Origin: Natronorubrum texcoconense
GTDB lineage: Archaea > Halobacteriota > Halobacteria > Halobacteriales > Natrialbaceae
Reading direction: 5' to 3'
Length of the DNA stretch: 64,000 bases
Assembly (NCBI RefSeq): GCF_900100335.1
Contig: NZ_FNFE01000005.1
Location: forward strand, 248,001 to 312,000
Positions 4,301-21,472 of the stretch are shown here, in pieces. The number at the start of each line of letters is the position of its first letter. The first letter of the stretch is position 1. The notes below the pieces were generated by a model. The model saw nothing but the letters and a program-made list of their open reading frames with translations, had not been told where the DNA came from and did not search any database. Made by a program: the position numbers and the translations under genes.

Positions 4301-4305
4301 CCGAC

Positions 4306-4310
4306 GGAGG
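4306..4310 (+). promoter_or_regulatory. ribosome binding site deciding the livG start
   Basis: GGAGG lies seven bases before the ATG at 4318. It supports that start over a longer frame reaching back to 4246, which would overlap livM. Confidence 0.6.
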
Positions 4311-4317
4311 AACACGA

Positions 4318-5094
4318 ATGAGTACGCATACAACGCAATCGGCCCATGACGAAGCACAGACGACCGACATCCTCCGACTCGAAGATGTCACGAAACAGTT
4401 CGGGAACGTTACCGCGGTAGACAACCTCTCCTTTAGCGTCAGCGAGCGAGAGATACTCGGATTCATCGGTCCAAACGGCGCCGGAAAGTCGACGACGTTC
4501 GACTGCGTCTCCGGGACGATGGCGCCGACGGACGGCGAGATATACTACCGCGGCGAGAACGTCACCGGCGTCCCACAGCACGCCCTCGTGGAGAAGGGGA
4601 TCGCACGGACCTACCAGACGTTCCGCCCGCTGAACGACCGAACGGTACTGGAAAACATCGCGCTCTCACAGATGCCCAACTCGCTGTTCTCGTTCGCGGA
4701 TTTCCGCGCCGACACGGAACAGCGAGCCCGAGAGATCTGCGAGCAGGTCGGACTGGGCGACGTGGTCGACCAGACGCCCGACGAACTTCCCCACGCCGGA
4801 ATGCTCCGGCTCGAGATCGGACGGGCACTCGGAACCGATCCGGATTTGCTGTTGGTCGACGAGCCGTTCGCCGGACTCACGTCCGACGAAATCGACCGCA
4901 CCGCCGACCTGTTCACCTCGCTCCGCGAGGGTGGGATGACGCTGGTCGTGATCGACCACAACATGCACGGGCTGCTCGACCTCGTCGACCGCGTTATCGT
5001 CATCTCCTTCGGCGAGAAGATTGCCGAGGGGACGCCGGCGGAGATCCGCGACGATCCGACCGTCCAGGAGGCCTACCTCGGGGGTGAGATTTAA
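4318..5094 (+). CDS. livG: branched-chain-type ABC transporter ATP-binding protein (LivG family)
   Basis: 258 residues from the ATG at 4318. Walker A is GPNGAGKST and Walker B is LLLVDEPFAGL. The signature region reads PHAGMLRLEIGRAL, where most LivG proteins have an LSYGxQR-type signature, so the C-loop is atypical. The DHNM switch histidine is present (VIDHNMHGL). It provides half of the ATPase pair with LivF, whose ATG directly abuts its stop codon (TAAATG), implying coupled translation. Confidence 0.9.
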   Translation: MSTHTTQSAHDEAQTTDILRLEDVTKQFGNVTAVDNLSFSVSEREILGFIGPNGAGKSTTFDCVSGTMAPTDGEIYYRGENVTGVPQHALVEKGIARTYQTFRPLNDRTVLENIALSQMPNSLFSFADFRADTEQRAREICEQVGLGDVVDQTPDELPHAGMLRLEIGRALGTDPDLLLVDEPFAGLTSDEIDRTADLFTSLREGGMTLVVIDHNMHGLLDLVDRVIVISFGEKIAEGTPAEIRDDPTVQEAYLGGEI

Positions 5095-5811
5095 ATGGCG
5101 GACGACTCGCGCGAATCGATGCTCTCGGTTTCGGATCTCTCCGTCTCCTACGGGAAGGTGACGGCACTCGATGGCGTCGACCTCGACGTCCCGTCCGGTG
5201 AGACGATCGGCGTCATCGGACCGAACGGTGCGGGCAAGTCGACGCTGGTCGACACCATCGGCGGCTTCCTCGATTACGAGGGCTCGATCACCTATCGCGG
5301 TCTGGAGGTCTCGGAGACGGATACGCCGACGCTGATCGAAAACGGGCTGTTCTACTGCACCGAGCGGCGGGACCTGTTCGGCCAGATGTCCGTCGAACAG
5401 AACCTCCGCCTCGGATCGTACCTCAACGACGAGGGCGAAGACGAGCGACTCGAGGAGGTCTTCGACCTGTTCCCGCGACTCGAAGAGCGCCGATCACAGG
5501 AAGCGGAGAGTCTGAGCGGCGGCGAACAACAGATGCTGTCGCTCGGCCGCGGTCTGATGAGCGATCCGGAGTTTCTCGTTCTGGACGAACCGTCGATCGG
5601 ACTGGCGCCGGTCGTTCTCGACGACATCAGCGAGGCGCTAACGTCGATTCAGGAACTCGACGTCACGATCCTACTCTGTGAGCAGAACCTCACGTTCGCC
5701 CTCGAACACGCCGACCGACTCACGCTCCTCGAGAACGGAACGGTACAGCGATCCGGAACGACGGCGGAGCTTCAGTCGGACGAACTCGTCGAATCGTACA
5801 TCGGTGGCTGA
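5095..5811 (+). CDS. livF: branched-chain-type ABC transporter ATP-binding protein (LivF family)
   Basis: 238 residues, normal for LivF. Walker A is GPNGAGKST, the signature is LSGGEQQML and Walker B is FLVLDEPSIGLAP, all intact. It starts on the base after the livG stop and ends the unit. A 6-base inverted pair GGCTGA/TCAGCC (5806-5830) spans its stop codon and could form a weak hairpin. With LivG it would energise the LivHM channel. Confidence 0.92.
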   Translation: MADDSRESMLSVSDLSVSYGKVTALDGVDLDVPSGETIGVIGPNGAGKSTLVDTIGGFLDYEGSITYRGLEVSETDTPTLIENGLFYCTERRDLFGQMSVEQNLRLGSYLNDEGEDERLEEVFDLFPRLEERRSQEAESLSGGEQQMLSLGRGLMSDPEFLVLDEPSIGLAPVVLDDISEALTSIQELDVTILLCEQNLTFALEHADRLTLLENGTVQRSGTTAELQSDELVESYIGG

Positions 5812-6489: not shown

Positions 6490-7251
6490 ATGACCGACGC
6501 AACACCCCCGATGTCATCGGTGCTCCGGGCGTTCGACGTACTGACTGTTCTCTGGGAAGTAAACGGCGCCGGCCCGTCGGAGGTCGCGACGCGGATGGAC
6601 GTACCGAAGAGCACGGCTCACGTCTATCTCCACACGCTCGAGGAGACTGGCTACGTCGTCAACGACGGCGGCGAGTACCGGCTCAGCCACCAGTTCCTGG
6701 CGACGGGATCGCGAATTAAACACCGCAACAGCCTCTTTCAGGCGGCGGAGCCGAAACTCCGCGAACTCGCGATGGAGACGGGCGAACTCATCACTCTGGT
6801 CATCGAGGAAGCTGGTCAGTCCGTAATCCTCCACAAGGAAACTGGCGACCGGTCGCTCGAACTGGGTATCTACTCGGGGATGATCACGCCGTTGCACTCG
6901 AACGCAACCGGAAAAGCGATTCTCGCCAATCTTCCACCGGAGCGGACGGACGAAATCATCGAGACCCACGGGCTCACGCCGTTGACAGAGAAGACGGTCA
7001 CCGACGAGGAGCGGTTACGAACCGAGCTCGACTCGATCCGGGAACAGGGGTACGCAGTCGACTGGGATCAACAGGTCAAGGGAATGGGGCTAATCGGGGC
7101 ACCGATCGAGATCGACGGCGAACTCAAGGGTGCAGTCGGTATCGCGGGGCCGACGGGGCGGATCCAGGACGAGACGTATCAGACCACGCTCCGACAGGAA
7201 CTCCAGGGGACGATCGATTCGATTACGATCAAGTATCGGTACGGCACGTGA
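6490..7251 (+). CDS. IclR family transcriptional regulator
   Basis: 253 residues, the usual IclR length. The N-terminal winged helix (about residues 10-70) includes GPSEVATRMDVPKSTAHVYL, with the recognition helix around PKSTAHVYLHTL. The C-terminal effector domain contains HSNATGKAILA and IGAPI...GAVGIAGPTGRI, typical of the IclR ligand pocket. IclR proteins commonly control aromatic-acid and sugar-acid catabolism. Its place between the importer and the gentisate-type genes suggests it regulates one or both, an inference from position. Confidence 0.92.
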   Translation: MTDATPPMSSVLRAFDVLTVLWEVNGAGPSEVATRMDVPKSTAHVYLHTLEETGYVVNDGGEYRLSHQFLATGSRIKHRNSLFQAAEPKLRELAMETGELITLVIEEAGQSVILHKETGDRSLELGIYSGMITPLHSNATGKAILANLPPERTDEIIETHGLTPLTEKTVTDEERLRTELDSIREQGYAVDWDQQVKGMGLIGAPIEIDGELKGAVGIAGPTGRIQDETYQTTLRQELQGTIDSITIKYRYGT

Positions 7252-8951: not shown

Positions 8952-10340
8952 ATGTCGGTAACTGACTTGTTCGATCCCAGGGGTATCGCGGTTGTCGGAG
9001 CCTCCGAAACGTCCGGAAAGATCGGCTACGAAGCCATGCAAAACGCGGTCGAGTTCGACGGCCCGGTGTACCCGGTTAACCCGTCGGCGTCCGGGACCAT
9101 CTTCGGCCGAGAGTTCGTCTCTTCGGTAACCGAGATCGACGGCGAGGTTGATCTGGCGCTGTGTTGCGTGCCGGCGCCGATCGTCCCGGACGTCATCGAA
9201 GACTGTGGTAAAGCGGGTATCGGCGGCGCAGTCGTCTTCGCCGGCGGGTTCGGCGAGGCCGGACCGGACGGTGAGGAACTCGAGGAGCGACTCATCGAGG
9301 CCGCATCCGAGGGGGACGTCGCGTTGCTCGGGCCGAACACGAGCGGCTTTCTGGTCCCCGAAGAGCATCTCTTCGCGACGTTCGCGACTGACGTCGACAC
9401 CATCCCCGCCGGCAACGTCGCTGTCGTCGCCCAGAGCGGCGGACTCGCGTACGCCATCGCGTTTCAGGCTGAAAATGAGGGAGTTGGCGTCTCCGCGATG
9501 GTTGGGCTCGGCAACCGCGCGAACGTCGGCTTCGAGGAGGCGATCGAGTACTTCGACGGCGACGCGAAGACCGACTCGATCGTCCTCCACGTCGAGGGGA
9601 CCGACGACGGTCGCGGCCTCCTCGAGACCTGCCGGCGCGTCGAGACGCCGGTCGTCGCCTACAACGTCGGCGAACAGGACGTCGGCGATTTCGCGGAGTC
9701 ACACACTGGGGCACTCACAGGCGAATACGAACTGTACGAAGCAGGATTCGCCCAGTACGGCGTGCCCACGGTCCGTACGTCGACGGAACTCCTCGATGCC
9801 GGCACGGCGCTTGCGTCGTCGCCACGACCGGACGGGCCGAACGTCGGCGTCGTCACGGCCCAGGCTGGCCCGGGGATCGCGATCACGGACCGACTGAAAG
9901 CGGCGGGGGCGAACCTCCCCTCGCTCACCGAGGAGACCCAAGACATCGTCGAGGAGATCCTCCCCGGAATCACGTTCTCGGCGAACCCGGTTGATACCGG
10001 CCGTCCGATGCCGGAGTTCGGCGACGTCGTCGCCGCCGTCGCTCGCGACGACAACATCGATATCGTTCTCGTCTACGAGCTTTACGAGGGCGGACTGGGG
10101 TATCCGACCGACACGCTTGCGGCCGTCGTCGACGAGGTGCAGAAACCGATCGTCTTCGCCAGCGGCGGCCCCGAGGCCGTCATCAACGAAGAGCTCGCCG
10201 AACTCGAGGCGCTCGGAATCCCGACCTTCACGGCGCCTGAACGCGGGGCGGACGCGGTCAGCGCGCTCGTCCAGTACGCCAAGCGCAACGCGGGGCCCGA
10301 CGCGGCCGTTGCGGGCGAGGAGGTGAGCGTCGATGACTGA
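8952..10340 (+). CDS. ADP-forming acyl-CoA synthetase, alpha (CoA-binding) subunit
   Basis: 462 residues. It begins MSVTDLFDPRGIAVVGAS, the Rossmann-like CoA-binding domain of the AcdA/Pat family. A succinyl-CoA-synthetase-like flavodoxin domain follows, and then a domain starting NVGVVTAQAG. His251 in ESHTGAL matches the phosphorylated His region of ADP-forming synthetases. The ATP-grasp part is a separate gene (10333) overlapping by 8 bases, so the enzyme is the two-subunit form. It interconverts acyl-CoA + ADP + Pi and acid + CoA + ATP. Next to aromatic genes it may activate an aryl acid (inference). A decayed paralogue lies at 23132. Confidence 0.9.
   Translation: MSVTDLFDPRGIAVVGASETSGKIGYEAMQNAVEFDGPVYPVNPSASGTIFGREFVSSVTEIDGEVDLALCCVPAPIVPDVIEDCGKAGIGGAVVFAGGFGEAGPDGEELEERLIEAASEGDVALLGPNTSGFLVPEEHLFATFATDVDTIPAGNVAVVAQSGGLAYAIAFQAENEGVGVSAMVGLGNRANVGFEEAIEYFDGDAKTDSIVLHVEGTDDGRGLLETCRRVETPVVAYNVGEQDVGDFAESHTGALTGEYELYEAGFAQYGVPTVRTSTELLDAGTALASSPRPDGPNVGVVTAQAGPGIAITDRLKAAGANLPSLTEETQDIVEEILPGITFSANPVDTGRPMPEFGDVVAAVARDDNIDIVLVYELYEGGLGYPTDTLAAVVDEVQKPIVFASGGPEAVINEELAELEALGIPTFTAPERGADAVSALVQYAKRNAGPDAAVAGEEVSVDD
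10319..10326 (+). promoter_or_regulatory. strong ribosome binding site inside the alpha-subunit gene
   Basis: GGAGGTGA precedes the beta-subunit ATG (10333) by six bases while still inside the alpha coding sequence, ensuring coupled translation of the two subunits. Confidence 0.7.
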
Positions 10341-11028
10341 CGCTCTCGAGGCCGCCCGCGACGAGCAGCGCTCCGCGCTGACAGAAGCCGAAGCGAAGGA
10401 GTTGCTCGCCAGTCGCGGGCTCTCCGTTCCGGACGGCGAGACGGTCACGTCGTCCGAAGAGGCGGTCGAGGCCGCCGAACGGATCGGTTACCCGGTCGTC
10501 GTAAAGGTCGCCTCGCCGGCAGTTCAGCACAAGAGCGAGTGGGGGAGCGGCGTCGGCGTAAACGTGAACCTCACGACCCCCGACGAGGTTCGGACGGCCG
10601 CGGTGGACATCTTCGAGGCGGCCGACCGCGAGGGGATCGACGCCGCGGTGTTCGTCGAAGAAGCCGCCGACCTCGAGGCCGGGCTCGAGGTGATCGTCGG
10701 CGGCACGCGAGATCCGTCGTTCGGCCCGACCGTTCTCGTCGGCCTTGGCGGGATTACCGTCGAGGTCCTCCAGGACACGAGCCACCGGATCGCCCCGATC
10801 TCGACCGCCGAGGCCGTCGCGATGACCCGCGAACTCGAGGCATCGCCGCTGTTCGACGGCTATCGCGGCTCTCCGGCGGTCGATCGGGAGGCCGTCGCCG
10901 AGGCGATCGTCACCGTTGGCGAGGTACTTGACGCGAACGAGGAGATCCGCGAGATCGAGATCAACCCGCTACTGGCGGAGTCGGATCGAGCGGTCGCGCT
11001 CGACGCGCTCGTCTCGCTCGACGACTGA
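10333..11028 (+). CDS. ADP-forming acyl-CoA synthetase, beta (ATP-grasp) subunit
   Basis: 231 residues, the length of AcdB-type subunits. It starts with TEAEAKELLASRGL and GYPVVVKVASPAVQHKSEWGSGVGVNV, the ATP-grasp nucleotide-binding core. It ends with EIREIEINPLL, the metal/nucleotide motif conserved in ATP-grasp CoA synthetases. It overlaps the alpha gene by 8 bases in another frame. Together they conserve acyl-CoA energy as ATP, common in archaea. The partner pairing is certain from arrangement; the acyl substrate is not. Confidence 0.9.
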   Translation: MTDALEAARDEQRSALTEAEAKELLASRGLSVPDGETVTSSEEAVEAAERIGYPVVVKVASPAVQHKSEWGSGVGVNVNLTTPDEVRTAAVDIFEAADREGIDAAVFVEEAADLEAGLEVIVGGTRDPSFGPTVLVGLGGITVEVLQDTSHRIAPISTAEAVAMTRELEASPLFDGYRGSPAVDREAVAEAIVTVGEVLDANEEIREIEINPLLAESDRAVALDALVSLDD

Positions 11029-11097
11029 CCGGCGGCTCTCGGCGTTGTCGCGTTCTCGAAAAATCGTCCCGCGGACGAGGATCGTTTCGATCGACTA

Positions 11098-11976
11098 TCA
11101 GTCGTCTTTCTGGCTCTTCTGAACGTTGACGTCCTCGAAGGCGAGGTCGCGTTCCGTGACGTCAACGGTCATCGCGCCGACGTCCTCGATCTCGGCGTCG
11201 ATGGTGTCGCCACCCTCGATCGCGCTGACGCCTTCCGGCGTCCCGGTGGTGATGACGTCCCCGGCTTCGATCGTCGCGCCGATCGAGGCGTACTCGACGA
11301 TGTCGGCGCAGCTGTAGATCATGCCGCCGGTGTTCTCTTGTTGCTTCGTCTCGCCGTTGAGTTGGAGTTCCATCTCGAGGTCGTGGGGATCGTCGAACTC
11401 GTCGGGGGTCGTGACGCAGGGACCGATGATGGTGAACGTGTCGTAGGACTTGCGGTTCGAGCGGTCCTGGTCGCCGCGAACGGAGACGTCGAGCAGGATC
11501 GTGTAGCCGAGAATAGCGCCCCAGACGTCGTCGGCGTCGATGTCCTTGACGTCCTCGCCCATGACGAAGCCGAGTTCGATCTCGTGGTCGACCCGTCGGT
11601 CGTTGAAGGGGAGTTCGATGCCGTCCTCAGGGCCGGCGACGCTCGAGGGCGCCTTGAGGAAGTAGCCCTTGTCCTCGATGGTGAACCACTCCTCGGTGAC
11701 GATGTCCTTGTCGGCCAGGGCCTCTTCGACGTGGTTCTCGTAGTTCAGCGGCGCCGCGATGACCTTCCCGGGGCGGCGGACGGGAGACTCGATGGTGACC
11801 TCCTCGCGGTCGTAGTCAGCGTCCTCACTTTCGTACTCGCTGGCGTCTAAGTCCTTGCGGGCGTATTCCTTGAGCGGGTCGTTCGTCTCGAGACCGAGGT
11901 CGTCGGTCACGTCGATGATGCCGTCGTCGTCGGTCAGGAGTCCGAGCCGATCGTCGTTGAATCTAACGAGTCGCAT
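11098..11976 (-). CDS. fumarylacetoacetate hydrolase (FAH) family protein
   Basis: 292 residues. I chose the ATG at 11976 (MRLVRFNDD) because the upstream ATG at 12003 coincides with an AT-rich promoter box about 25 bases away. The FAH fold is shown by KVIAAPLNYENHVEEA, the metal ligands around DHEIELGFVMG, and TTGTPEGVSAIEGGD. Family members hydrolyse fumarylpyruvate/maleylpyruvate or related 2,4-dioxo acids. With gentisate dioxygenase next door on the same strand, cleavage of the ring-fission product to pyruvate plus fumarate or maleate is the likely role (context inference). Confidence 0.9.
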   Translation of the reverse strand: MRLVRFNDDRLGLLTDDDGIIDVTDDLGLETNDPLKEYARKDLDASEYESEDADYDREEVTIESPVRRPGKVIAAPLNYENHVEEALADKDIVTEEWFTIEDKGYFLKAPSSVAGPEDGIELPFNDRRVDHEIELGFVMGEDVKDIDADDVWGAILGYTILLDVSVRGDQDRSNRKSYDTFTIIGPCVTTPDEFDDPHDLEMELQLNGETKQQENTGGMIYSCADIVEYASIGATIEAGDVITTGTPEGVSAIEGGDTIDAEIEDVGAMTVDVTERDLAFEDVNVQKSQKDD

Positions 11977-12218
11977 GGTAGACCCACTGCGATCCGACCA
12001 CATAAAACATCCTCTCTCGGTCTCGCACGTTCGAACAATAGTGAGGGATTGCGATCGGAACGGCGTCGCACCGCCTCCACGGTTTGGTAGGCTGTCCTCG
12101 GACCGATAACGGAAGGCGATCAGCCGATCCGATCATCATACGGTCTGCTGTACGTCGGTACAGGAGCGACCGCAGGACGAAACGCGGCCGCTCCGGTAAA
12201 ACGCTACAGCGAACCGTA

Positions 12219-12401
12219 TCAGTCGTTGGCGGCGATCTGGTCGTCGAAGACGGTGTCCGAGTCGAAGACGTTGCGACAGTCCTCACACACCATCTGTTGA
12301 TCCATCGCGTACTCCCAGAGTTTGCCGCCGCAGTCCAGACAGTCGAAGTGTGCCCGAACGAACGGACTGTGCTCCGCGTACGGATTCTCGAACTCTGCCA
12401 T
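12219..12401 (-). CDS. small zinc-ribbon protein, 60 residues
   Basis: 60 residues with two CxxC knuckles (CLDCGG and CEDCRN) spaced by about 18 residues, typical of CPxCG-like haloarchaeal micro-proteins that bind one zinc. The composition is acidic, as expected for a genuine halophile protein, and the ATG is preceded by an AT-rich stretch (TTTATTGG) about 25 bases upstream. It sits between the FAH-family and gentisate dioxygenase genes on the same strand. The function is unknown; a DNA- or partner-binding accessory role for the cluster is speculative. Confidence 0.7.
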   Translation of the reverse strand: MAEFENPYAEHSPFVRAHFDCLDCGGKLWEYAMDQQMVCEDCRNVFDSDTVFDDQIAAND

Positions 12402-12588
12402 ACGCGTACGGTACGTCCGCCGACCAATAAAGGATTCCCCATACCGATGATCTCGGGGACGGTGGCTCGAGCACGAGACGGGGAACGAAAACCACTATCG
12501 GGAGCGCGCCTGGGACGCGTAGTCACCGCTCGAGTCCGAGCGTCCATCGAAAAACGGACCGTGGCCGTGTGATCGCCGCCGTCAGTCG

Positions 12589-13674
12589 CTACTCGTTTGG
12601 CGCGGATTCGGCGTAGAAGTTGAACGCCTCGAACACGGGTCGGTCGGTCATGCCCAGGAGGATCGCTTCCTCGCCGTCCGGCTCGTGGCTGTGGAGTTCG
12701 TTCGGCGGGACCACGAAAATGTCCCACTGCCCCCACTCGAGGGTCTCGTCGCCGACGTGGGTGACACCCTCGCCCTCGATGACGAAGTAGACCTCCGTGG
12801 CATTGTGGAAGTGCGTCTCGGTGGCCTCCTGCAGAAGCTGCGCCCGGAACGACATCGTCGGGAACAGCGGCGCCTGGCCGTTCGCCGGGTTGACGTACGC
12901 CATACTGTAGCCGTCGTACGGGTCCGGCGTGGTGTTGTCGGCGCGCTGGCGCAGCGTCTCGAGGGTCTCGTCCCAGCCGAAGCGGTAGGGCGGGGTCGGA
13001 TCGCGGATCCCCTCGAACGGCCCCGGAATGCCGTCGCCGTTCGACTCGTTGGCGGGACGGGCCTGTCCGAACTGGGAATCCCAGTAGCCCTGGGTCTTCG
13101 TGACCGGCTGTCGCTCGAGTTCGTGGTTCTCGAAGACGTTCGAGGAGTTCAGCGAGTCCAAGATCAGCGGCAGATCCAGCACGTCGAGCCACATCGCGGT
13201 CTCGTCGGAGTCGTTGACGTGGTCGTGCCACTCCCACTGGGGCGTCGTAATGAGGTCGTTGTTCTCCATCGGGAACTCCTCGCCTGCAACGACGGTCTTC
13301 ATCTCCTCGTGGCCGTCGATGGTAAAGCGCAGGGCGTTGGCCCCGTGGCGATGGGAGGGCGCCGTCTCACCCGGCGAAACGGTCTGGACGCCGAGATAGA
13401 TCGTGTTCGAGATGGCGTTGTTCATTCCGGTGTTGATCGGGACCGCGACTCGCCGCTGGAACCCCGGCGGTAGTTCCTCGATCGGCATGTCCTCCTCGAC
13501 GTTGTCGATCGCCCGCTTGATGTCTTCCCACTTCCAGATGTCCGGCTCGAGATCGTCGTAGGTGTTTCCGAAGTCGTCCTCGACCTCCCACAGCGGCCGG
13601 AGGTTGTTCTCCTCGAGGATACTCCGGGTCTCCGAAGTCAGTTCGATACCCTCTTCGGGCTCCTGTTGTGCCAT
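12589..13674 (-). CDS. gentisate 1,2-dioxygenase family (double cupin)
   Basis: 361 residues from the ATG at 13674; an earlier ATG at 13701 falls in the TATA-like box GCATAAGT. Two cupin domains are visible. The first has SPGETAPSHRHGANALRF with the metal-binding His pair. The second includes EATETHFHNATEVYFVIEGEG with HFH and a downstream HSHE. This matches gentisate/1-hydroxy-2-naphthoate dioxygenases, Fe(II) enzymes that open the ring of gentisate to maleylpyruvate. Length agrees (about 340-370). The adjacent FAH-family hydrolase and FAD monooxygenase give a coherent aromatic route. Confidence 0.88.
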   Translation of the reverse strand: MAQQEPEEGIELTSETRSILEENNLRPLWEVEDDFGNTYDDLEPDIWKWEDIKRAIDNVEEDMPIEELPPGFQRRVAVPINTGMNNAISNTIYLGVQTVSPGETAPSHRHGANALRFTIDGHEEMKTVVAGEEFPMENNDLITTPQWEWHDHVNDSDETAMWLDVLDLPLILDSLNSSNVFENHELERQPVTKTQGYWDSQFGQARPANESNGDGIPGPFEGIRDPTPPYRFGWDETLETLRQRADNTTPDPYDGYSMAYVNPANGQAPLFPTMSFRAQLLQEATETHFHNATEVYFVIEGEGVTHVGDETLEWGQWDIFVVPPNELHSHEPDGEEAILLGMTDRPVFEAFNFYAESAPNE

Positions 13675-13697
13675 AGGTGTTACAACTGCAAGAATCG

Positions 13698-13705
13698 GCA
13701 TAAGT
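13698..13705 (-). promoter_or_regulatory. TATA-like box of the gentisate dioxygenase gene
   Basis: On the minus strand ACTTATGC lies about 24 bases upstream of the chosen ATG, consistent with a leaderless transcript and with rejecting the longer start. Confidence 0.4.
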
Positions 13706-13921
13706 GTGTTGGAGCACGAAGTCGAGAGGTTCCCTGTCGCGCGCAGACCCTACTGTGGGGCTACAGGGACAGATCGGCTCGCGTGGTCTCGTTGCGGTCG
13801 GTGATCGAGTCGACGTCGGGTCCTTCGCTCAATCGGAAGTGGCCGACGTTTGGAATCTTTCGAGAGGGTAGTACTGACCAAAAGGGAATGAATTTAGGTA
13901 TTCGCGCCACAGACTGTGAGT

Positions 13922-14245
13922 ATGGTACTAGAACGAGACCTCGAAGCGGTCACAGCGAAGCGAAACGACCTGCCATCTGCCGCCGACGTCTACGACGAGG
14001 GCGAGGACATCCCCATCGAGGACGTGTTCGACGACGCGTTCGTGCAGGCGCGGACCGAGTTCGAAACCTTCGACGAACTGGTCGCGGCCAGTCCCAGCGA
14101 GGCCGGCTCGGTTGAGGAATTCGAAAAGGTCTCTCACGGCGAGTGGGACGAGTTCGTCGCCGAGTCGACCGAGTTCGACGACGAGGAGGCGTTCGTGTTC
14201 GCCGCTCGTGATCACTGGGTCGCCAAGCGACTGCAATTGGTCTGA
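13922..14245 (+). CDS. conserved-looking acidic hypothetical protein, 107 residues
   Basis: Very acidic small protein starting MVLERDLEAVTAKR at an ATG; a GTG six bases earlier is possible. No known domain is recognised. It has a helical, non-membrane pattern and ends ARDHWVAKRLQLV. TTTAGGTA lies about 20-30 bases upstream, fitting a leaderless promoter. It sits on the plus strand between two minus-strand aromatic catabolism genes, so it is transcribed alone. Function unknown. Confidence 0.65.
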   Translation: MVLERDLEAVTAKRNDLPSAADVYDEGEDIPIEDVFDDAFVQARTEFETFDELVAASPSEAGSVEEFEKVSHGEWDEFVAESTEFDDEEAFVFAARDHWVAKRLQLV

Positions 14246-14473
14246 GCCGTATCGCTTTTCGCGCGTCGCGCGCGGCGCAGTCCGAATAGACGCGTCGTTC
14301 GGTCGGCGCTTTCGAGAACCGAGATGCGACTAGATCTGCTGCTCGAGGCGCTCGTATTCGCCGTTCGATCGAGCGACGCGTAAGCGACTGCTGTTCGGAT
14401 CGATGTCTCGAGCGACGTGAAGACCGCGAGCGCTCCTCGAAAGCGCGAGGAAAAAGCCGAACCGAGCGGATGC

Positions 14474-15709
14474 TCAGTAGTTACCGGTCGAGACGATCGG
14501 CGGCGCTTCGTGGGGGCCGTACGGCGCGTCGTCGAGCCACTCTCCGGCGACCTCGAAGTAGTCAGATAGCTCGGCCGCGACTTCCTTCCGGAGTACCGTC
14601 TCTGGATCGTCGCCCTGGAGATATTCCAGGGCCTGACCGGCCGCACTGAGGTTGAACTCGGCGGCCTTCTCGCGGCGCGCGGCGAACAGTTCGATCTCGT
14701 TGTGTGCAACGCCCTCCGTCGTGGCGTCGAGCGCGACGGAGATAGCCGAGGCTGCTTCGTCCGCATCGGGGACCCCGGAGTTCATCCCGCGAGCGCCAAA
14801 CGGCGCGAGCAGGTGGGCGGCCTCGCCGGCGAGCAGGACTCGGCGGTGCTCGTCGACGAAGGTGTCGGCCATCACCTGGAGGAAGTGATAGGTCGAGACC
14901 CACTTCAGCTTGTCCTCGTACTCCTCACCCATGATGTCTCGGACGAACTCCCGCATCTGTTCTTCGCCGCTGATTTCCCCGGGATCGTCGTCGCCGATAC
15001 ACTGGATGTCGAGGCGCCAGCCGCCGGTGAACGGAACGAGCAAGACGTTTCGACCGTCGGCCTCGGGCGCGTCGTAGTGGAACATCCGCTCGAGCCCGGG
15101 ATGGTCGTCCTCGATCGCTTCGTCCTCGACGTCGGCGATGATGAAGGCGTTCTCGGACTGATCGCCCTCGAAATTCGCACCGATTTCCTTGCGGACCTGC
15201 GAGCCGCCGCCGTCGGCGCCGACCAGGTACTCCGTCTTCCACTCGCGCCCGTCACCGGTCTCGACGGTGACGCCGTCAGGCGAGGAATCGACCGAAACGA
15301 CCTCGGACTCCCAGTGGATCTCGATACCGGCGTCCTCGAGCGCCTCGTGCATGTACCGCTCGGTGACGACCTGCGGGACGCTGGTGAAGTGCGGGATGTC
15401 ACCCGAGCCGCCGGGCGAGTCGTACGTCCGGTTGAACACCTCTTTTCCCTTGTAGAGTGTCCTGCGAGTCGGCCAGACGAGACCCTCATCGACGAGGTCC
15501 GTTCCGAGTCCGGGGCAGATCCGTTCGAACGTTCGAAGCGTCGCGCCATGGACGTAGATCGCACGACTCCCGTCCCGATCCCGGTCTTCGGGTTCGGCCT
15601 CGAGAATCGCCGTCTCGATTCCGCGCGCGTTCAATGCGAGTGCTGCCGTCATACCGACTGGCCCGGCGCCTGCAACTAGGGCTGGTTTGTCGTTCGTATC
15701 GCCGCTCAT
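14474..15709 (-). CDS. FAD-dependent aromatic monooxygenase (PHBH-like group A)
   Basis: 411 residues. The N-terminal dinucleotide fold reads VAGAGPVGMTAALAL, the DG motif is YLVGADGGGSQVRK, and the FAD-ribityl motif is RVLLAGEAAHLLAPFGARGMNSG (GEAAH in place of the common GDAAH). These define the p-hydroxybenzoate hydroxylase family. With gentisate dioxygenase nearby, the product should be gentisate or gentisyl-CoA, so it may be a 3-hydroxybenzoate 6-hydroxylase, a salicylate 5-hydroxylase type or a hydroxybenzoyl-CoA hydroxylase. Sequence alone does not decide. Its upstream region carries the TGGWCCA cluster. Confidence 0.88.
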   Translation of the reverse strand: MSGDTNDKPALVAGAGPVGMTAALALNARGIETAILEAEPEDRDRDGSRAIYVHGATLRTFERICPGLGTDLVDEGLVWPTRRTLYKGKEVFNRTYDSPGGSGDIPHFTSVPQVVTERYMHEALEDAGIEIHWESEVVSVDSSPDGVTVETGDGREWKTEYLVGADGGGSQVRKEIGANFEGDQSENAFIIADVEDEAIEDDHPGLERMFHYDAPEADGRNVLLVPFTGGWRLDIQCIGDDDPGEISGEEQMREFVRDIMGEEYEDKLKWVSTYHFLQVMADTFVDEHRRVLLAGEAAHLLAPFGARGMNSGVPDADEAASAISVALDATTEGVAHNEIELFAARREKAAEFNLSAAGQALEYLQGDDPETVLRKEVAAELSDYFEVAGEWLDDAPYGPHEAPPIVSTGNY

Positions 15710-15720
15710 TGTCGGTAGTG

Positions 15721-15769
15721 ATGGACCACGGTATCATAGTAGTTGTGGTCGTCCACTGTTTATGGACCA
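15721..15769. promoter_or_regulatory. candidate operator: paired TGGWCCA dyads upstream of the monooxygenase
   Basis: ATGGACCAC (15721-15729) and ATGGACCAT (15762-15770) lie 41 bases apart, four helical turns. Between them is GTGGTCGTCCAC (15745-15756), with the same GTGG...CCAC arms. The first copy is 12 bases upstream of the monooxygenase ATG, where a repressor could block initiation. Further copies lie at 15937, 16426 and 16474. Confidence 0.45.
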
Positions 15770-16425
15770 TTAGGTTACAAAAGTCGATGTTAGAGGTTTT
15801 AGCATTACGTTCAACGATAGCAGAGGATCGCTCAGAGTGTTTAAACATGCTCGAGACGAGAACACACCAGATGTAGATGCCGACGGTACCGTAACGGCCC
15901 GAAATCCACGATACCTGCGTGCGAGTGAGAATTTTCGTGGTCCAACAGTCGAGTTCCCGTCAGTCGTTCGCCACTGACTTTCGTCGGCAGCACCCGCGTT
16001 TCCTCACAGCGAACTAAACAGCGATGTCCGCAGAACACGACGGAGATGAGAAAGGGATAGTATCCAGTTGAAGTTGCGCTATTCCCCAACAGGTTGAATT
16101 ATGCCGTTCACCACACGCCTTCGGTGCCGCGACATCGAGCCAATAGTTGGCAGGGCACTCGATCCGTCACACGAATATTGCACACAGTACGTCTACCGGC
16201 GGTATCTCGGCAGGACGCGATCGGCAAACTGCCAAGCAGTACTATCGACAGTGACGGTTTCCGTCCGGCTGCACTGCTGTATACTCCGTAATCCATGCCA
16301 GGGTGAGGTTACAGTTATCGAGATAGGAAACTCATAGGTTACAAAGATCGTTCGAGCGCCAATTTAGTAAATGCTTGTAATGTTATTAGCCATATTAGTT
16401 GCAAACCCAACGGTATGAGGGGAGA

Positions 16426-16482
16426 ATGGTCCACGTTCGTCGATTTTTTACAATAGTACAATCGTCAATGAAGATGGTCCAC
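16426..16482. promoter_or_regulatory. second pair of TGGTCCA dyads
   Basis: ATGGTCCAC occurs at 16426-16434 and again at 16474-16482, 48 bases apart, resembling the pair at 15721/15762 in opposite orientation. A single related copy GTGGTCCAA lies at 15937-15945. No gene start lies immediately beside this pair, so its target is unclear. Confidence 0.35.
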
Positions 16483-16711
16483 GCTGAGACGGACCGAATA
16501 GTTGCGACAGGGACGGTATCAACCGTAAGCGAACGCAGCAAACGGGCTAAAGAGGGGGCCGTCGGCAATCAGCGCCATTGAGGGCAACTGCGCGGCGGAG
16601 TGCAGTCCCACGAAAAATCGGACGACCTGTCATATCGTCTGCTGTGACGATGTACAGGTGCAGTCGCAGAACGGTCACGTTGGCGCCGAAAATGACGTAC
16701 CGCAATCCGTC

Positions 16712-17107
16712 TCAGTTGTCGGTCGTGTCGAGCAGCACCGTACGGTCCGATCTCAAGATGACATCCTGTGCAACGCTGCCGAACAGCGCCTTTCCGGTCG
16801 GCGAGCGCTTTCGCCCGGCGAGGCTGATCACGTCGGCGTCGAGCGCCTCTGCCTCGTCCAGAATGTTTCGAACAGCGTCACCGCTTGATTGGCGGATTTC
16901 GACGTCGAAACCCGCCTCCTCAAGGCTGTCGAGAGCCACAGAAACCGACTTGAGATTCCTCGCGTCGGCCCCCTCGCCGTCCGCTCGAAAGACGTGATAG
17001 AGAACGAGATCCGTCTCATCCGTCTGCAATGGTAAGCTGGTAATCGACTCGACCTGTTCTTTCGCTCGTGTAACGTCCGTGTCGATGCTGACTAGTATCG
17101 TTGTCAT
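16712..17107 (-). CDS. universal stress protein (UspA family)
   Basis: 131 residues, one Usp domain. It starts MTTILVSIDTDVTRAKEQ and ends with the ATP-binding signature GRKRSPTGKALFGSVAQDV followed by VLL, matching the G-x2-G-x9-G(S/T) nucleotide loop approximately. Usp proteins bind ATP or signalling nucleotides and modulate stress responses or associated transporters. It stands alone between two non-coding stretches. No functional link to the aromatic genes is shown. Confidence 0.88.
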   Translation of the reverse strand: MTTILVSIDTDVTRAKEQVESITSLPLQTDETDLVLYHVFRADGEGADARNLKSVSVALDSLEEAGFDVEIRQSSGDAVRNILDEAEALDADVISLAGRKRSPTGKALFGSVAQDVILRSDRTVLLDTTDN

Positions 17108-17512
17108 GAATATCGCGGTTTGTGTCGTATTCTCTCGTTCTGCACGACCAATTCGTCTTTCGATCTGAATTTGGGTAGGAGGACTATTAATTCCCTGGAT
17201 TTACTGTCTCGCAACTGGCCCGTTCGCGAGGAGCGAACGGTGGCGGTCGTCACAGTGCCCTCAGAGAACACAGAGTACCAGCAGGAAGGCGACGGTGTTG
17301 CTTCGAAGAGAGCCCTTCGCGAATCATCGATTCGTGCAACCACGGAAATCACCGATTTCCGGACGACCAGGCACTCGGGCTGCTCCGCCTGTAGATTGAG
17401 TAACTTGTGAAATCGCCAGCGAGCAGTGTGACACGTATTGTTGGACGCCGTTCTCGACGCGACCACAGGTCGGTCGCAGTTGCTCTGTAGATCGGGACTG
17501 ACGACAGTTGTG
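17108..17512. other. non-coding stretch with one strong hairpin
   Basis: 405 bases without a gene I can support. The only clear structure is a perfect 8-base stem, CCGTTCGC/GCGAACGG (17220-17240), with a GAGGA loop. Confidence 0.5.
17220..17240. repeat. perfect 8-bp stem-loop
   Basis: CCGTTCGC (17220-17227), GAGGA loop, GCGAACGG (17233-17240). There is no T-tract after either side. Upstream of the Usp gene it could be an operator; alternatively it is a structural remnant. Confidence 0.4.
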
Positions 17513-17908
17513 TCAAATATTCTCCAGTGATTCGCGCAGGTCGTCGGGCACTTCGATGCCGCTGTCCCCGTCGAGCGGAACGCAGACGCGGTATTCGGTC
17601 CCCTCGAAGACGACATCGCTCTCGTGTGTTGCTCGATAGTTGAACTCGATGCTCGAGTCGCCAACGGTCGCGTCCAGTTCGATTTCGACCTCGTCGCCGC
17701 CGTTGACCTGACTCGTGAAGTCGAAGTCCATCGATACGAGGGGCAACCCCAGGCCGTATCGATCGTTGAGTTCCCAGTAGGGCCATCCGATCTCGTCCAT
17801 ACACATATCCGACGTCTCGTGGATCGCGTCGATCATCCGTGGATAGTGGGCGATACCAAACGGATCAGTGTCCGAAAATCGAACGGTCCAGGTGCGTGTA
17901 AAGCTCAT
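17513..17908 (-). CDS. hotdog-fold acyl-CoA thioesterase (4-hydroxybenzoyl-CoA thioesterase/YbgC type)
   Basis: 131 residues from the ATG at 17908; a TTG start at 17923 would add five. It begins SFTRTWTVRFSDTDPFGIAHYPRM. The D-x-D/FGIxHYPRM pattern, with Asp and His-Tyr, is the catalytic signature of 4-hydroxybenzoyl-CoA thioesterases. It would hydrolyse an aryl- or acyl-CoA to the free acid. Near a CoA ligase, an FAD hydroxylase and gentisate dioxygenase, release of gentisate or hydroxybenzoate from CoA is plausible. The distance (1.8 kb from the monooxygenase) keeps this an inference. Confidence 0.85.
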   Translation of the reverse strand: MSFTRTWTVRFSDTDPFGIAHYPRMIDAIHETSDMCMDEIGWPYWELNDRYGLGLPLVSMDFDFTSQVNGGDEVEIELDATVGDSSIEFNYRATHESDVVFEGTEYRVCVPLDGDSGIEVPDDLRESLENI

Positions 17909-18388: not shown

Positions 18389-21300
18389 ATGACTGCGACT
18401 CCCCCCACTTCGATCGAGGAGACCGACGCCGGGCCGGCGACCGACGAACGGGCCGGTTACGACTACGTTTCGGACGACGTCGAGCGACCAGAACTGGTCG
18501 CCGACCTTCGGAACAGGATCGCAGGCGACGTCCGGTTCGACACGTACACCCGTCAGCTGTACGCGACCGACGCCAGCGCGTACCAGGAGACGCCGATCGG
18601 CGTCGTCTTCCCGACGACGACCGAAGACGTCTCGAGCGCCGTTTCCTACTGCGCCGAACGCGGAATTCCCGTCCTCCCGCGGGGCGGCGGCACGAGCCTC
18701 GCCGGACAGGCGGTCAACGAGGCCGTCGTCCTCGATTTCACTCGCCACATGGACGACATCGTCTCGGTCGACCCGGACGAGCGGCGAGCGCGCGTCCAGT
18801 CGGGAGTCGTTCTCGAGGAACTCAACGAGACCCTCGCCGGCCACGGGCTGAAGTTCGCTCCCGATCCGGCCGCGGGGAACCGCAGCGTTATCGGTGGCGC
18901 GATTGGTAACAACTCGACGGGCGCTCACTCGCTGGTCTACGGAAAGACCGATGCCTACGTCGAGACCTGCGAGGTCGTCCTCGCCGACGGGACGGTCGCC
19001 ACGCTCGGCGAGATCGACGTCGATGAACTCCGAGCGCAGGCCGACCCCGACGGCGACCTCCTCGAGCGCGTCTCCGCCGAGGTCGTCCGCATCATCGACG
19101 ACGAGGCCGACGCGGTCCGTGATCGCTTCCCGAACCTGAAGCGAAACGTCTCCGGCTACAACCTCGATATGCTCGTCGCGGAGGCCGAGACCGGCACCGT
19201 GAACCTCGCACGCCTGCTCGCGGGCAGCGAGGGAACCCTCGCCGTCGTCACCGAAGCCGAGGTCTCTCTCGAGCCGGTCCCGGAAACGAAGGCCGTCTCC
19301 CTGCTGTTCTACGAGAGCGTTCTCGAGGCCGTGACGGACGTTCAGTACGTCCTCGAGCACGATCCGGCGGCAGTGGAGCTCATCGACGACGTGCTCATCG
19401 GACTGGCACGAAACACGGCGGACTTCGAGGAGGTCGCGTCTCTCGTCCCGGAGGACGCTGAAGCGGCGCTGCTGATCGAGTTCTACGCCGACGACGACGA
19501 GCACGGCCGAGAACAGACCGGTGGCCTCCTCTCCGACCGCGTGCCGGGAACCGAGAGCGCGGTCGCCTCGTCCGACGATCCAACGGACGTCGACGAGACC
19601 TTCGCCTTCGAGGGCCTCGAAGCCCACGCCGAGGCCGACCGCGAGCAGTTCTGGAAGCTGCGCAAGGCAGGCCTCCCGATTCTCCTCTCGCGGACCTCCG
19701 ACGAGAAGCACATCTCCTTCATGGAGGACTGTGCGATCCCGCCGGCACACCTGCCCGAGTTCGTCGAACGATTCCAGTCGCTGCTCGTCGAGAAGGGGCG
19801 GGACGTCGATGCGGCGTTCTACGCCCACGCGGGACCGGGTGTCCTCCACGTTCGCCCGCTGGTGAACACGAAGGCGGCCGACGACCGCGCGGACATGGTC
19901 GAGATCGCCGACGAAGTGACCGACATGGTCGTCGAGTTCGGCGGCTCCGTCTCGGGCGAACACGGCGACGGCCGCGCCCGGACCCAATGGAATCGCAAGC
20001 TCTACGGCGAGGAGCTCTGGGAGGCGTTCCGCGAACTGAAGACGGCGTTCGACCCCGACTGGCTGCTCAACCCCGGAAACGTCTGTGGCGACCACGACAT
20101 GACGGAGAACCTCCGGTACGACACCGACTACAGCCACGACGCCGGGTTCGATCCCGCACTCAACTGGGACAACGAGAACGGCATGCAGGGAATGGTCGAA
20201 CTCTGTCACGGCTGTGGCGGCTGCCGGGGCGACCAGGAGACCACCGGTGGCGTGATGTGTCCGACCTACCGCGCCGCCGAAGAAGAAGTCACCACCACTC
20301 GCGGCCGCGCGAACCTCCTCCGAAACGCGATGAGCGGCGAGTTGCCCGACGACCCGACCGACGACGAGTTCGTCGAGGAGGTCCTCGACCTCTGTATCGG
20401 CTGCAAGGGCTGTGCGCGGGACTGCCCGAGCGAAGTCGACATGGCCAAACTCAAGACCGAGGTCATGCACGAACGCCACCAGGAACACGGCGCGAGCCTC
20501 CGCGACAAACTCTTCGCGAACTTCGACCGGCTCGCACCGCTGGGCAGCGCCCTCGCTCCCCTCTCGAACCTCGCGCAGTCGCTGCCCGGCGCCGGAGTGA
20601 TCGGTGAGAAGACGGTCGGAATCGCCCGCGAACGGTCGCTGCCGGAGTTCCATCGCGAGACGGTCCAGGATTGGTTCGAGGCCCGCGGGGGCCCTCGCGT
20701 TCCCGAAGCCGAAGCCGAGCGGAAGGCAGTCTTCTTCGTAGACACCTACACGAACTACAGCCACCCCGACGTCGGCAAGGCGACGATTCGCGTCCTCGAG
20801 GCCGCCGGGGTCCACGTCGACGTCGCTCGACGGACCGACAGCGGTCGGCCGCCGCTCTCGAAGGGGTTCGTCGACAAGGCTCGTGAGACGATGCGGGCGA
20901 ACGTCGCCGAACTCGCACCCCGCATCGACGACGGTTGGGACGTCGTCCTCGCGGAACCCTCCGACGCGGTAATGTTCCAGTCGGACGCGCTCGACCTGCT
21001 CGGCGGCAGTAGCGTCGAGTCGGTTGCGGCGAACACGTACGGCGTCTCCGAGTACCTCGACACGTATCGGCTCGATGCGAACATCGACTGGGCGGCGCCG
21101 TCTGATTCGCTTGCCTACCACGGTCACTGCCACCAGAAGGCCACGAAGAAAGACCATCACGCGGTCGGCGTCCTTCGGCGCGCCGGCTACGCCGTCGATC
21201 CGTTGGACTCGGGCTGTTGTGGGATGGCCGGCTCCTTCGGCTACGAGGCCGAACACTACTCGCTGAGCCAGTCGATCGGCGACATCTTAGTCGACCAAAT

Positions 21301-21472
21301 CGACGACAGCGAGGCAACCGTCGTCACCGCGCCGGGGACCTCCTGTCGGACCCAACTCGGTGACAAGCGCGTCGAGCCCGTTCCCGCCGAGAGCGCGCTG
21401 GCCGGCAGCGATCTCGACAGGTCGGAGCCGCCGACCCCGATCGAACTACTCGCTTACGCACTGCCGCGATAG
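18389..21472 (+). CDS. FAD-linked oxidase/4Fe-4S fusion protein, D-lactate dehydrogenase-like
   Basis: 1027 residues with three parts. Residues about 30-270 form a PCMH-type FAD domain (PVLPRGGGTSLAGQAV, SVIGGAIGNNSTGAHS). Up to about 570 is the GlcD/Dld C-terminal domain (GSVSGEHGDGRART). The remainder has two 4Fe-4S motifs, CHGCGGC...CP and CIGCKGCARDCP, and one CCG-type cysteine motif (DSGCCGMAGSFGYE). This GlcD-GlcF-like fusion oxidises D-lactate, glycolate or 2-hydroxy acids and passes electrons to the respiratory chain. The substrate is not fixed by sequence. It is monocistronic, and nothing is missing from the expected domain order. Confidence 0.92.
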   Translation: MTATPPTSIEETDAGPATDERAGYDYVSDDVERPELVADLRNRIAGDVRFDTYTRQLYATDASAYQETPIGVVFPTTTEDVSSAVSYCAERGIPVLPRGGGTSLAGQAVNEAVVLDFTRHMDDIVSVDPDERRARVQSGVVLEELNETLAGHGLKFAPDPAAGNRSVIGGAIGNNSTGAHSLVYGKTDAYVETCEVVLADGTVATLGEIDVDELRAQADPDGDLLERVSAEVVRIIDDEADAVRDRFPNLKRNVSGYNLDMLVAEAETGTVNLARLLAGSEGTLAVVTEAEVSLEPVPETKAVSLLFYESVLEAVTDVQYVLEHDPAAVELIDDVLIGLARNTADFEEVASLVPEDAEAALLIEFYADDDEHGREQTGGLLSDRVPGTESAVASSDDPTDVDETFAFEGLEAHAEADREQFWKLRKAGLPILLSRTSDEKHISFMEDCAIPPAHLPEFVERFQSLLVEKGRDVDAAFYAHAGPGVLHVRPLVNTKAADDRADMVEIADEVTDMVVEFGGSVSGEHGDGRARTQWNRKLYGEELWEAFRELKTAFDPDWLLNPGNVCGDHDMTENLRYDTDYSHDAGFDPALNWDNENGMQGMVELCHGCGGCRGDQETTGGVMCPTYRAAEEEVTTTRGRANLLRNAMSGELPDDPTDDEFVEEVLDLCIGCKGCARDCPSEVDMAKLKTEVMHERHQEHGASLRDKLFANFDRLAPLGSALAPLSNLAQSLPGAGVIGEKTVGIARERSLPEFHRETVQDWFEARGGPRVPEAEAERKAVFFVDTYTNYSHPDVGKATIRVLEAAGVHVDVARRTDSGRPPLSKGFVDKARETMRANVAELAPRIDDGWDVVLAEPSDAVMFQSDALDLLGGSSVESVAANTYGVSEYLDTYRLDANIDWAAPSDSLAYHGHCHQKATKKDHHAVGVLRRAGYAVDPLDSGCCGMAGSFGYEAEHYSLSQSIGDILVDQIDDSEATVVTAPGTSCRTQLGDKRVEPVPAESALAGSDLDRSEPPTPIELLAYALPR

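Follow-up and report, generated by a model that had tools for sequence, protein, structure and literature searches.

Within a 64-kb window of the Natronorubrum texcoconense genome (C6:248001-312000 of 4.64 Mb in total; the genome is G000 in our set), we find a group of genes that may constitute a haloarchaeal form of a coenzyme A (CoA)-dependent route to gentisate, equipped with a dedicated, reversible aryl-CoA synthetase of the ADP-forming type; judging from sequence, we give this reading a probability of about 0.55. The genes concerned encode a flavin hydroxylase (HYD), a hotdog thioesterase (THIO), a gentisate 1,2-dioxygenase-type double cupin (GDO), an FAH-family hydrolase (FAH) and the two subunits of an ADP-forming acyl-CoA synthetase (ACDα and ACDβ, together ACD). 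The initial annotation had placed these five functions at 8952-17908, and all five are present there as intact open reading frames (ORFs; Table 1). Our proposal builds on observed genes, folds, catalytic residues, co-occurrence, gene order and clade membership, and from these we infer all of the substrates, the NIH shift and the direction of the ACD.

In the proposed route, an aromatic acid, probably of plant type, would reach HYD as its CoA ester, formed when a free hydroxybenzoate is activated or when a side chain is shortened by β-oxidation. HYD would then hydroxylate the aroyl-CoA; if this is 4-hydroxybenzoyl-CoA, attack at the thioester-bearing carbon with migration of the thioester (the NIH shift) would give gentisyl-CoA, from which THIO would free gentisate for ring opening by GDO and splitting of the ring product by FAH. 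The ACD would act as a dedicated, reversible aryl-CoA synthetase, with activation pulled forward by oxygenation and thioester hydrolysis.

Co-occurrence and gene order in haloarchaea and bacteria

Six queries were run against 292 genomes of the class: HYD, THIO, ACDβ, GDO, an AMP-forming ligase that neighbors HYD in relatives (hereafter the dedicated AMP ligase) and a 107-aa protein whose gene sits between GDO and HYD and had been overlooked in the initial annotation. Cut-offs were at least 91 bits for the 107-aa protein (next best match, 55), above 500 bits for the AMP ligase, above 200 bits for ACDβ (plus G185), E 1e-15 for THIO and E 1e-80 for GDO. The AMP ligase set is a loose group, with second copies in some genomes scoring 526-591 bits; weaker matches were omitted as paralogues, which affected 24 additional genomes in the search with the 107-aa protein, 73 in that with the AMP ligase and 33 in that with ACDβ. 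The ACDβ of G185 (C9:9269-9956) reads as two overlapping pieces, pointing to a frameshift or an error in assembly.

HYD is present in 45 of the 292 genomes and in 23 of 77 genera, and each of its partners is concentrated in these 45 genomes, so that the gene set is far from a chance assembly. GDO occurs in 43 of the 45 against 1 of the other 247, THIO in 39 (38 on a strict count that leaves out G221) against 1, ACDβ in 39 against 1, the dedicated AMP ligase in 36 against 1, and the 107-aa protein in 38 against none. In G221, the THIO match scores 101 bits (42% identity), within the range of second copies in other genomes (86-101 bits), and it could be a paralogue. Fisher tests gave p <=2e-36 for these co-occurrences, values that ignore kinship among related genomes and therefore overstate the association. 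All 44 genomes with GDO carry ACDβ or the dedicated AMP ligase (8 the ACD only, 4 the ligase only and 32 both). The co-occurrence of HYD, THIO and GDO with a dedicated ACD or AMP ligase thus gives comparative support to the view, already put forward in the initial annotation, that gentisate is reached through CoA esters.

Gene order points in the same direction. Of the 37 genomes with both ACDβ and THIO, 24 have them side by side on the same strand, their matches no more than 107 bp apart. In 39 of 40 genomes, 5 kb or less separates ACDβ from GDO; the exception is G186, whose two genes are on separate contigs. ACDβ and THIO of the window are on opposite strands, 6.5 kb from each other; with ACDαβ on the plus strand and FAH, GDO, HYD and THIO on the minus strand, the set is not a single operon here. 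We also mapped about 10 kb around HYD in 46 loci (45 fetched plus the window). The resulting counts are ORF-based lower bounds (HYD itself was missed in L077) and place the 107-aa gene near HYD in at least 33 loci, the AMP ligase in at least 22, GDO in at least 20, ACDα or an α-only paralogue in at least 20, ACDβ in at least 17, and THIO and FAH in at least 13 each.

The 107-aa protein is the most exclusive of these partners, in that all 38 genomes reaching the cut-off have HYD. Its gene occurs in both orientations relative to HYD among relatives, and distant homologues (27-42% identity) are found in other haloarchaea. It has no Pfam match above cut-off, and its single-sequence AlphaFold2 model (predicted local distance difference test score, pLDDT, 57) was too poor for use.

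Relatives of HYD also occur in bacteria. A scan of 84,980 species genomes returned 411 relatives, of which the best 80 are covered here; because a Streptomyces homologue served as the confirming query, these 80 lean toward Streptomyces. Nine of the 80 are Bacillota (Brevibacillus, Geobacillus, Paenibacillus, Litchfieldia and Alicyclobacillus) with 43-50% identity to HYD, and at the thresholds used GDO lies near HYD in eight of the nine and a hotdog thioesterase in six. Among the Brevibacillus loci (47-50% identity), L148 adjoins thioesterase, GDO and FAH, L161 GDO and FAH, and L166 FAH only. A PaaK-like ligase immediately precedes HYD in Geobacillus jurassicus, and in Brevibacillus panacihumi HYD is surrounded by genes for a 3-hydroxyacyl-CoA dehydrogenase, a thiolase and, by eye, an enoyl-CoA-hydratase-like ORF. 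No ACDα match at E 1e-20 was found in any of the seven Bacillota genomes searched whole.

In bacteria, three genomes have an ACD no more than 4 kb from HYD, those of Kibdelosporangium persicum (L162), a gammaproteobacterial metagenome-assembled genome (L187) and a member of the same order (L222). Two group searches found HYD in 7 of 110 and 2 of 107 genomes, with a linked ACD in one and two of those, respectively. The genes in L222 run thiolase-HYD-GDO-FAH-ACD on one strand, with an enoyl-CoA hydratase/3-hydroxyacyl-CoA dehydrogenase and an AMP-binding protein nearby, and those in L187 run HYD-GDO-FAH-ACD followed by a glutathione S-transferase-domain protein. A tblastn search with two queries detected no thioesterase in the fetched stretches of L222, L187 (a short contig) and L162. 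The position of HYD relatives in Bacillota and gammaproteobacteria beside thioesterase, GDO or side-chain β-oxidation genes further supports a route through CoA esters.

The ADP-forming synthetase and its direction

A histidine of the β subunit takes part in phosphoryl transfer in the ACD superfamily. The ACD of the window has the CoA-binding, ligase and ATP-grasp domains of this superfamily and keeps both phosphorylation histidines, in an SHTGA motif in α and an HK motif in β. The role of the α histidine is described in PMC6388921 (here and below, sources given by PMC number are cited for excerpts of their text), which also provides an aromatic-substrate precedent in the NDP-forming metagenomic feruloyl-CoA synthetase FCS1. 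The score of ACDα against the model for the α subunit of ADP-forming acetate--CoA ligase (TIGR02717) is 355 bits, below the cut-off of 567.

In a quick tree of 56 sequences, 37 route-linked ACDs form one clade with an SH-aLRT support of 100, made up of 24 haloarchaeal α-β enzymes, 10 haloarchaeal α-only proteins and 3 bacterial fused forms (Kibdelosporangium and two gammaproteobacteria). The 19 generic ACDs, including the sole other ACD of the window genome, fall outside it; this background was hand-picked, and long branches meet at the stem of the clade, for which the program issued a warning. Matching segments with fewer than 290 query residues, duplicates, and L196 and L197 (copies of L162 and L187) were left out of the tree. 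Both catalytic histidines are retained in the α-β ACDs that were read. The ACD shares its CoA-binding/ligase architecture and catalytic histidine with FCS1 and the archaeal ACDs 2csu and 4xyl, and differs in its link to gentisate genes and in belonging to a clade apart from the sampled generic ACDs, a sample that did not contain FCS1, 2csu or 4xyl.

The α-only paralogue (L061:10879, L070:10894, L112:6070 and others; 10 rows of the tree) has no β subunit directly after it and in two genomes directly precedes the 107-aa gene and HYD. Its catalytic histidine is retained, in an SHTGA context that is frequently altered.

A tblastn search with six ligases (E 1e-3) gave no match to an AMP-forming ligase inside the window. 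Ending only 0.4 kb upstream of it, at C6:242257-247578, a single strand encodes a fused 3-hydroxyacyl-CoA dehydrogenase/enoyl-CoA hydratase, a thiolase and an AMP-forming ligase, the last being 68% identical to a ligase encoded about 10 kb or less from HYD in 12 of the 46 loci. With these genes so close, the aroyl-CoA may come from side-chain β-oxidation as well as from activation of the free acid. Seven of the eight ACD-only genomes (G000, G062, G105, G137, G142, G151 and G189) have an AMP-forming ligase of another type in the vicinity of HYD or the ACD; in the eighth, G281, one 19.5-kb stretch (L058) contained none. Because generic AMP-forming ligases are common (11 matches in G000), such nearness is weak evidence. 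The suggestion in the initial annotation that an ADP-forming ligase takes the place of the usual AMP-forming one is therefore not supported in that form. The ACD does appear to belong to the route, given its own clade, its intact catalytic residues, its frequent position next to THIO and its proximity to HYD in the three bacterial genomes. Simple replacement we reject, both because 32 of the 44 GDO genomes hold the two kinds of enzyme and because an AMP-forming ligase and β-oxidation genes lie just outside the window.

As to direction, we tentatively favor activation of free hydroxybenzoate by the ACD, which ranks slightly above ATP-forming release, because the ACD adjoins THIO and GDO and a downstream thioesterase would pull a near-equilibrium activation forward. 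Somewhat unlikely, in our judgment, is an ACD that works mainly in the opposite sense, with aroyl-CoA supplied by AMP ligases or a β-oxidation thiolase and gentisyl-CoA, ADP and Pi converted to gentisate, CoA and ATP. Such an enzyme would suit the 32 genomes with both ACDβ and a dedicated AMP ligase, the three genomes of one genus that have the ACD and lack THIO (G017, G061 and G098), and the order of genes in L222, given the lack of a detected thioesterase there and in the L187 and L162 stretches, and the superfamily has members that run in this direction (PMC6388921). Set against this, the ACD adjoins THIO in those 24 of 37 genomes, where THIO would waste the same thioester, and unlinked thioesterases may be present. 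Operation in both directions seems to us quite unlikely.

G142 (L225) gives no match to HYD at the applied cut-off, and it retains the ACD (85/80% identical), THIO, GDO and FAH, together with its own AMP ligase (DHB-AMP-ligase-like) and a different hydroxylase with FAD_binding_3 and Oxidored_FMN domains. The best model for this hydroxylase is salicylyl-CoA 5-hydroxylase, at 562 bits under a cut-off of 1078. In the SdgC route, a salicylyl-CoA 5-hydroxylase produces gentisyl-CoA (PMC13215587), the intermediate also proposed here, and G142 pairs a hydroxylase of this type with ACD and THIO. HYD is unlike the G142 protein, being a one-domain protein of 411 aa in which no Oxidored_FMN domain, and so no SdgC-type architecture, was found at E 0.001. 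By analogy, the intermediate common to the G142 and HYD routes would be gentisyl-CoA; retention of the ACD alongside another hydroxylase and an AMP ligase is a further point for ATP-forming release.

A broader and bolder idea is that the ACD makes the CoA tag nearly free, through one-ATP activation and/or ATP regained from gentisyl-CoA, in a manner common to haloarchaea, an actinobacterium and gammaproteobacteria, and that in haloarchaea the 107-aa protein acts as a partner of the hydroxylase; we consider this combination a possibility.

The hydroxylase, its substrate and known routes to gentisate

HYD is an FAD_binding_3 enzyme whose closest plasmid-borne copies are in Natrinema, Natribaculum, Halostagnicola, Haladaptatus, Haloarcula and other haloarchaea. 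Its AlphaFold2 model (pLDDT 87) matches p-nitrophenol 4-monooxygenase PnpA, the top Foldseek match, with a Z score of 33.7, a root mean square deviation (rmsd) of 3.2 and 21% identity over 364 aligned residues. The best row for 4-hydroxybenzoate 3-monooxygenase (PobA/PHBH), 8y2s, has the same Z score (33.7), an rmsd of 3.1 and 14% identity over 361 residues. PnpA hydroxylates a substituted carbon para to a phenol, an ipso attack of the kind needed for a carboxyl NIH shift. The likeness of the HYD model to PnpA is therefore a hint that fits such a shift.

We regard 4-hydroxybenzoyl-CoA, hydroxylated with an NIH shift, as the most likely substrate of HYD by analogy with its relatives. The organism long called Bacillus stearothermophilus is now placed in Geobacillus, and conversion of 4-hydroxybenzoate to gentisate is also known in Brevibacillus laterosporus. 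HYD occurs in Geobacillus, Brevibacillus and Haloarcula, that is, in groups that turn 4-hydroxybenzoate into gentisate, a conversion reported for some Bacillus (B. stearothermophilus in a reference title) and for Haloarcula sp. D1 (PMC10815724). In addition, the homologue in Streptomyces sp. Mg1 (L109, one annotated record) lies with two AMP-forming ligases, pabB and a class IV aminotransferase, among para-aminobenzoate synthesis genes, which suggests that loci of this type may use an aminobenzoyl thioester in biosynthesis. Both observations count against a CoA-dependent route in which HYD would act on 3-hydroxybenzoyl-CoA, benzoyl-CoA or salicylyl-CoA with no carboxyl shift. This alternative, which we consider unlikely, gains from the β-oxidation genes near the cluster, which would also give benzoyl-CoA from cinnamate or phenylpropionate, and from the use of cinnamate and 3-phenylpropionate by Haloferax D1227 (PMC4005966).

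In THIO, the Asp of a TDPFGI motif (TDxxGI) aligns with the catalytic Asp17 of 4-hydroxybenzoyl-CoA thioesterase 1bvq. THIO can be likened, by description, to BH1999 of Bacillus halodurans, a hotdog gentisyl-CoA thioesterase in a gentisate gene cluster (PMC516016). The sole NCBIfam models matching GDO at E 0.001 are 5-aminosalicylate dioxygenase (NF049978; 214 bits, cut-off 650) and gentisate 1,2-dioxygenase (TIGR02272; 209 bits, cut-off 442), so that GDO likely has gentisate dioxygenase activity without reaching the equivalog level. FAH is probably a fumarylpyruvate or maleylpyruvate hydrolase, as judged from its family.

Zhao et al. are said to have described, in 2018, a phgABC route in Brevibacillus laterosporus PHB-7a. 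This is summarized as a CoA-dependent route to gentisate (PMC7862547), and our gene set resembles it in that a flavin hydroxylase and a thioesterase would feed gentisate formation, together with a CoA ligase, a part that the ACD may play. A related hydroxylase is found when the Brevibacillus loci stand in for the phgB sequence, THIO supplies a hotdog thioesterase with the catalytic Asp, and the layout to be expected of phgABC is mostly seen in the four Brevibacillus and Geobacillus HYD loci, where GDO is near in three and a thioesterase in two. Unlike phgABC, the haloarchaeal set has an ADP-forming synthetase tied to the route and the 107-aa partner, and its nearest AMP-forming ligase was found outside the window. 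Among haloarchaea, Haloarcula sp. D1 converts 4-hydroxybenzoate to gentisate with an NIH shift (Fairley et al. 2002; PMC4005966, PMC10815724), and gentisate is likewise the ring-cleavage substrate proposed here. For this haloarchaeal route the dioxygenase is the one gene named in the cited part of PMC4005966; we propose genes beyond it.

A conventional gentisate pathway, in which HYD would be a free-acid hydroxylase such as 3-hydroxybenzoate 6-hydroxylase and ACD and THIO would serve another acid, agrees with the PHBH fold of HYD and with growth of Haloferax D1227 on benzoate and 3-hydroxybenzoate via gentisate (PMC4005966), yet is very unlikely given that THIO and ACDβ are hardly found outside HYD/GDO genomes, that relatives of HYD in several phyla have thioesterases, AMP ligases, thiolases and ACDs nearby, and that HYD scores only 59 bits, against a cut-off of 351, with the 4-hydroxybenzoate 3-monooxygenase model NF006091.

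Several observations weigh against the CoA-dependent route with a dedicated ACD. Six HYD genomes lack THIO (G017, G061, G081, G098, G182 and G246, with G221 added on the strict count) and six lack ACDβ (G081, G129, G182, G221, G246 and G255). The HYDs linked to an ACD are scattered over several lineages of the HYD tree, in which one in four Streptomyces rows was kept, bringing the total from 136 to 89 rows, and do not form a single lineage. In bacteria, an ACD near HYD is limited to the three genomes described above, and 66 of the best 80 bacterial loci (L114-L193), mostly Streptomyces, have two AMP-forming ligases near HYD. As AMP-forming ligases co-occur with the ACD, the latter may not be the activator. 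The position of Asp32, the second Asp of 1bvq, aligns with a His in THIO, a difference also to be noted in the comparison with BH1999. HYD could act on another aroyl-CoA or on a free acid. Finally, phgABC expressed in Pseudomonas chlororaphis gave no gentisate (PMC7862547).

Neighboring genes and significance

The ORFs of ACDα and ACDβ overlap by 8 bases (Table 1). Of the neighboring genes, the two ABC transporter ATPases have a possible role in aromatic acid uptake, and an ABC ATPase-like gene pair is also close to HYD in several relatives. The universal stress protein family (cluster 6) is found in 17 of the 46 HYD loci and the D-2-hydroxyacid dehydrogenase-like family (cluster 20) in 8. Some relatives, among them L112 (13294-14754), encode a nucleoside-recognition (Gate) membrane protein between the stress protein and HYD. 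No credible counterpart was found in the window, including 15710-16711, and a homologue lies upstream at C6:240642-242087. Elsewhere in the window, a Peptidase S13 (D-Ala-D-Ala carboxypeptidase 3 family, 310 bits) is encoded at 38458-40107 on the minus strand, in a haloarchaeon.

Table 1. Genes of the proposed gentisate route and their neighbors, in window coordinates.
Feature	Position	Strand	Evidence
Two branched-chain-amino-acid-type ABC transporter ATPases	4246..5811	+	Sequence; LivG/LivF-like by eye
IclR-family regulator	6490..7251	+	BhcR and PcaR/PcaU/PobR as closest curated models, each below its cut-off
ACDα, CoA-binding and ligase subunit of ADP-forming aryl-CoA synthetase (proposed)	8952..10340	+	Pfam PF13607/PF13380; Succ_CoA_lig 129 bits, CoA_binding_2
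ACDβ, ATP-grasp subunit	10333..11028	+	PF13549, ATP-grasp_5 217 bits
FAH-family hydrolase	11098..12003	-	PF01557, FAA_hydrolase 174 bits
GDO, gentisate 1,2-dioxygenase-type double cupin	12589..13701	-	NF049978 and TIGR02272, both under cut-off
107-aa acidic protein	13922..14245	+	Strong matches confined to HYD genomes
HYD, PHBH-fold flavin hydroxylase, proposed aroyl-CoA (4-hydroxybenzoyl-CoA) hydroxylase	14474..15709	-	PF01494, FAD_binding_3 145 bits
Universal stress protein	16712..17107	-	PF00582
THIO, hotdog thioesterase, proposed gentisyl-CoA thioesterase	17513..17908 (from ATG)	-	PF13279, 4HBT_2 33 bits
FAD/Fe-S D-2-hydroxyacid dehydrogenase-like protein	18389..21472	+	PF02913, PF01565, PF02754

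What is new here is a dedicated ADP-forming synthetase and a small partner protein in an already known kind of pathway. Our searches of the open-access literature turned up no ADP-forming synthetase tied to a gentisate route; subscription papers may hold earlier gene assignments. The analysis provides a concrete gene set for the haloarchaeal route to gentisate, with a hydroxylase that is present in 45 of 292 haloarchaeal genomes, and it gives the small 107-aa protein a near-perfect genomic partner in HYD. If it is true that the ACD regains ATP at gentisyl-CoA, aerobic aromatic catabolism would gain a substrate-level phosphorylation step at the point of release.

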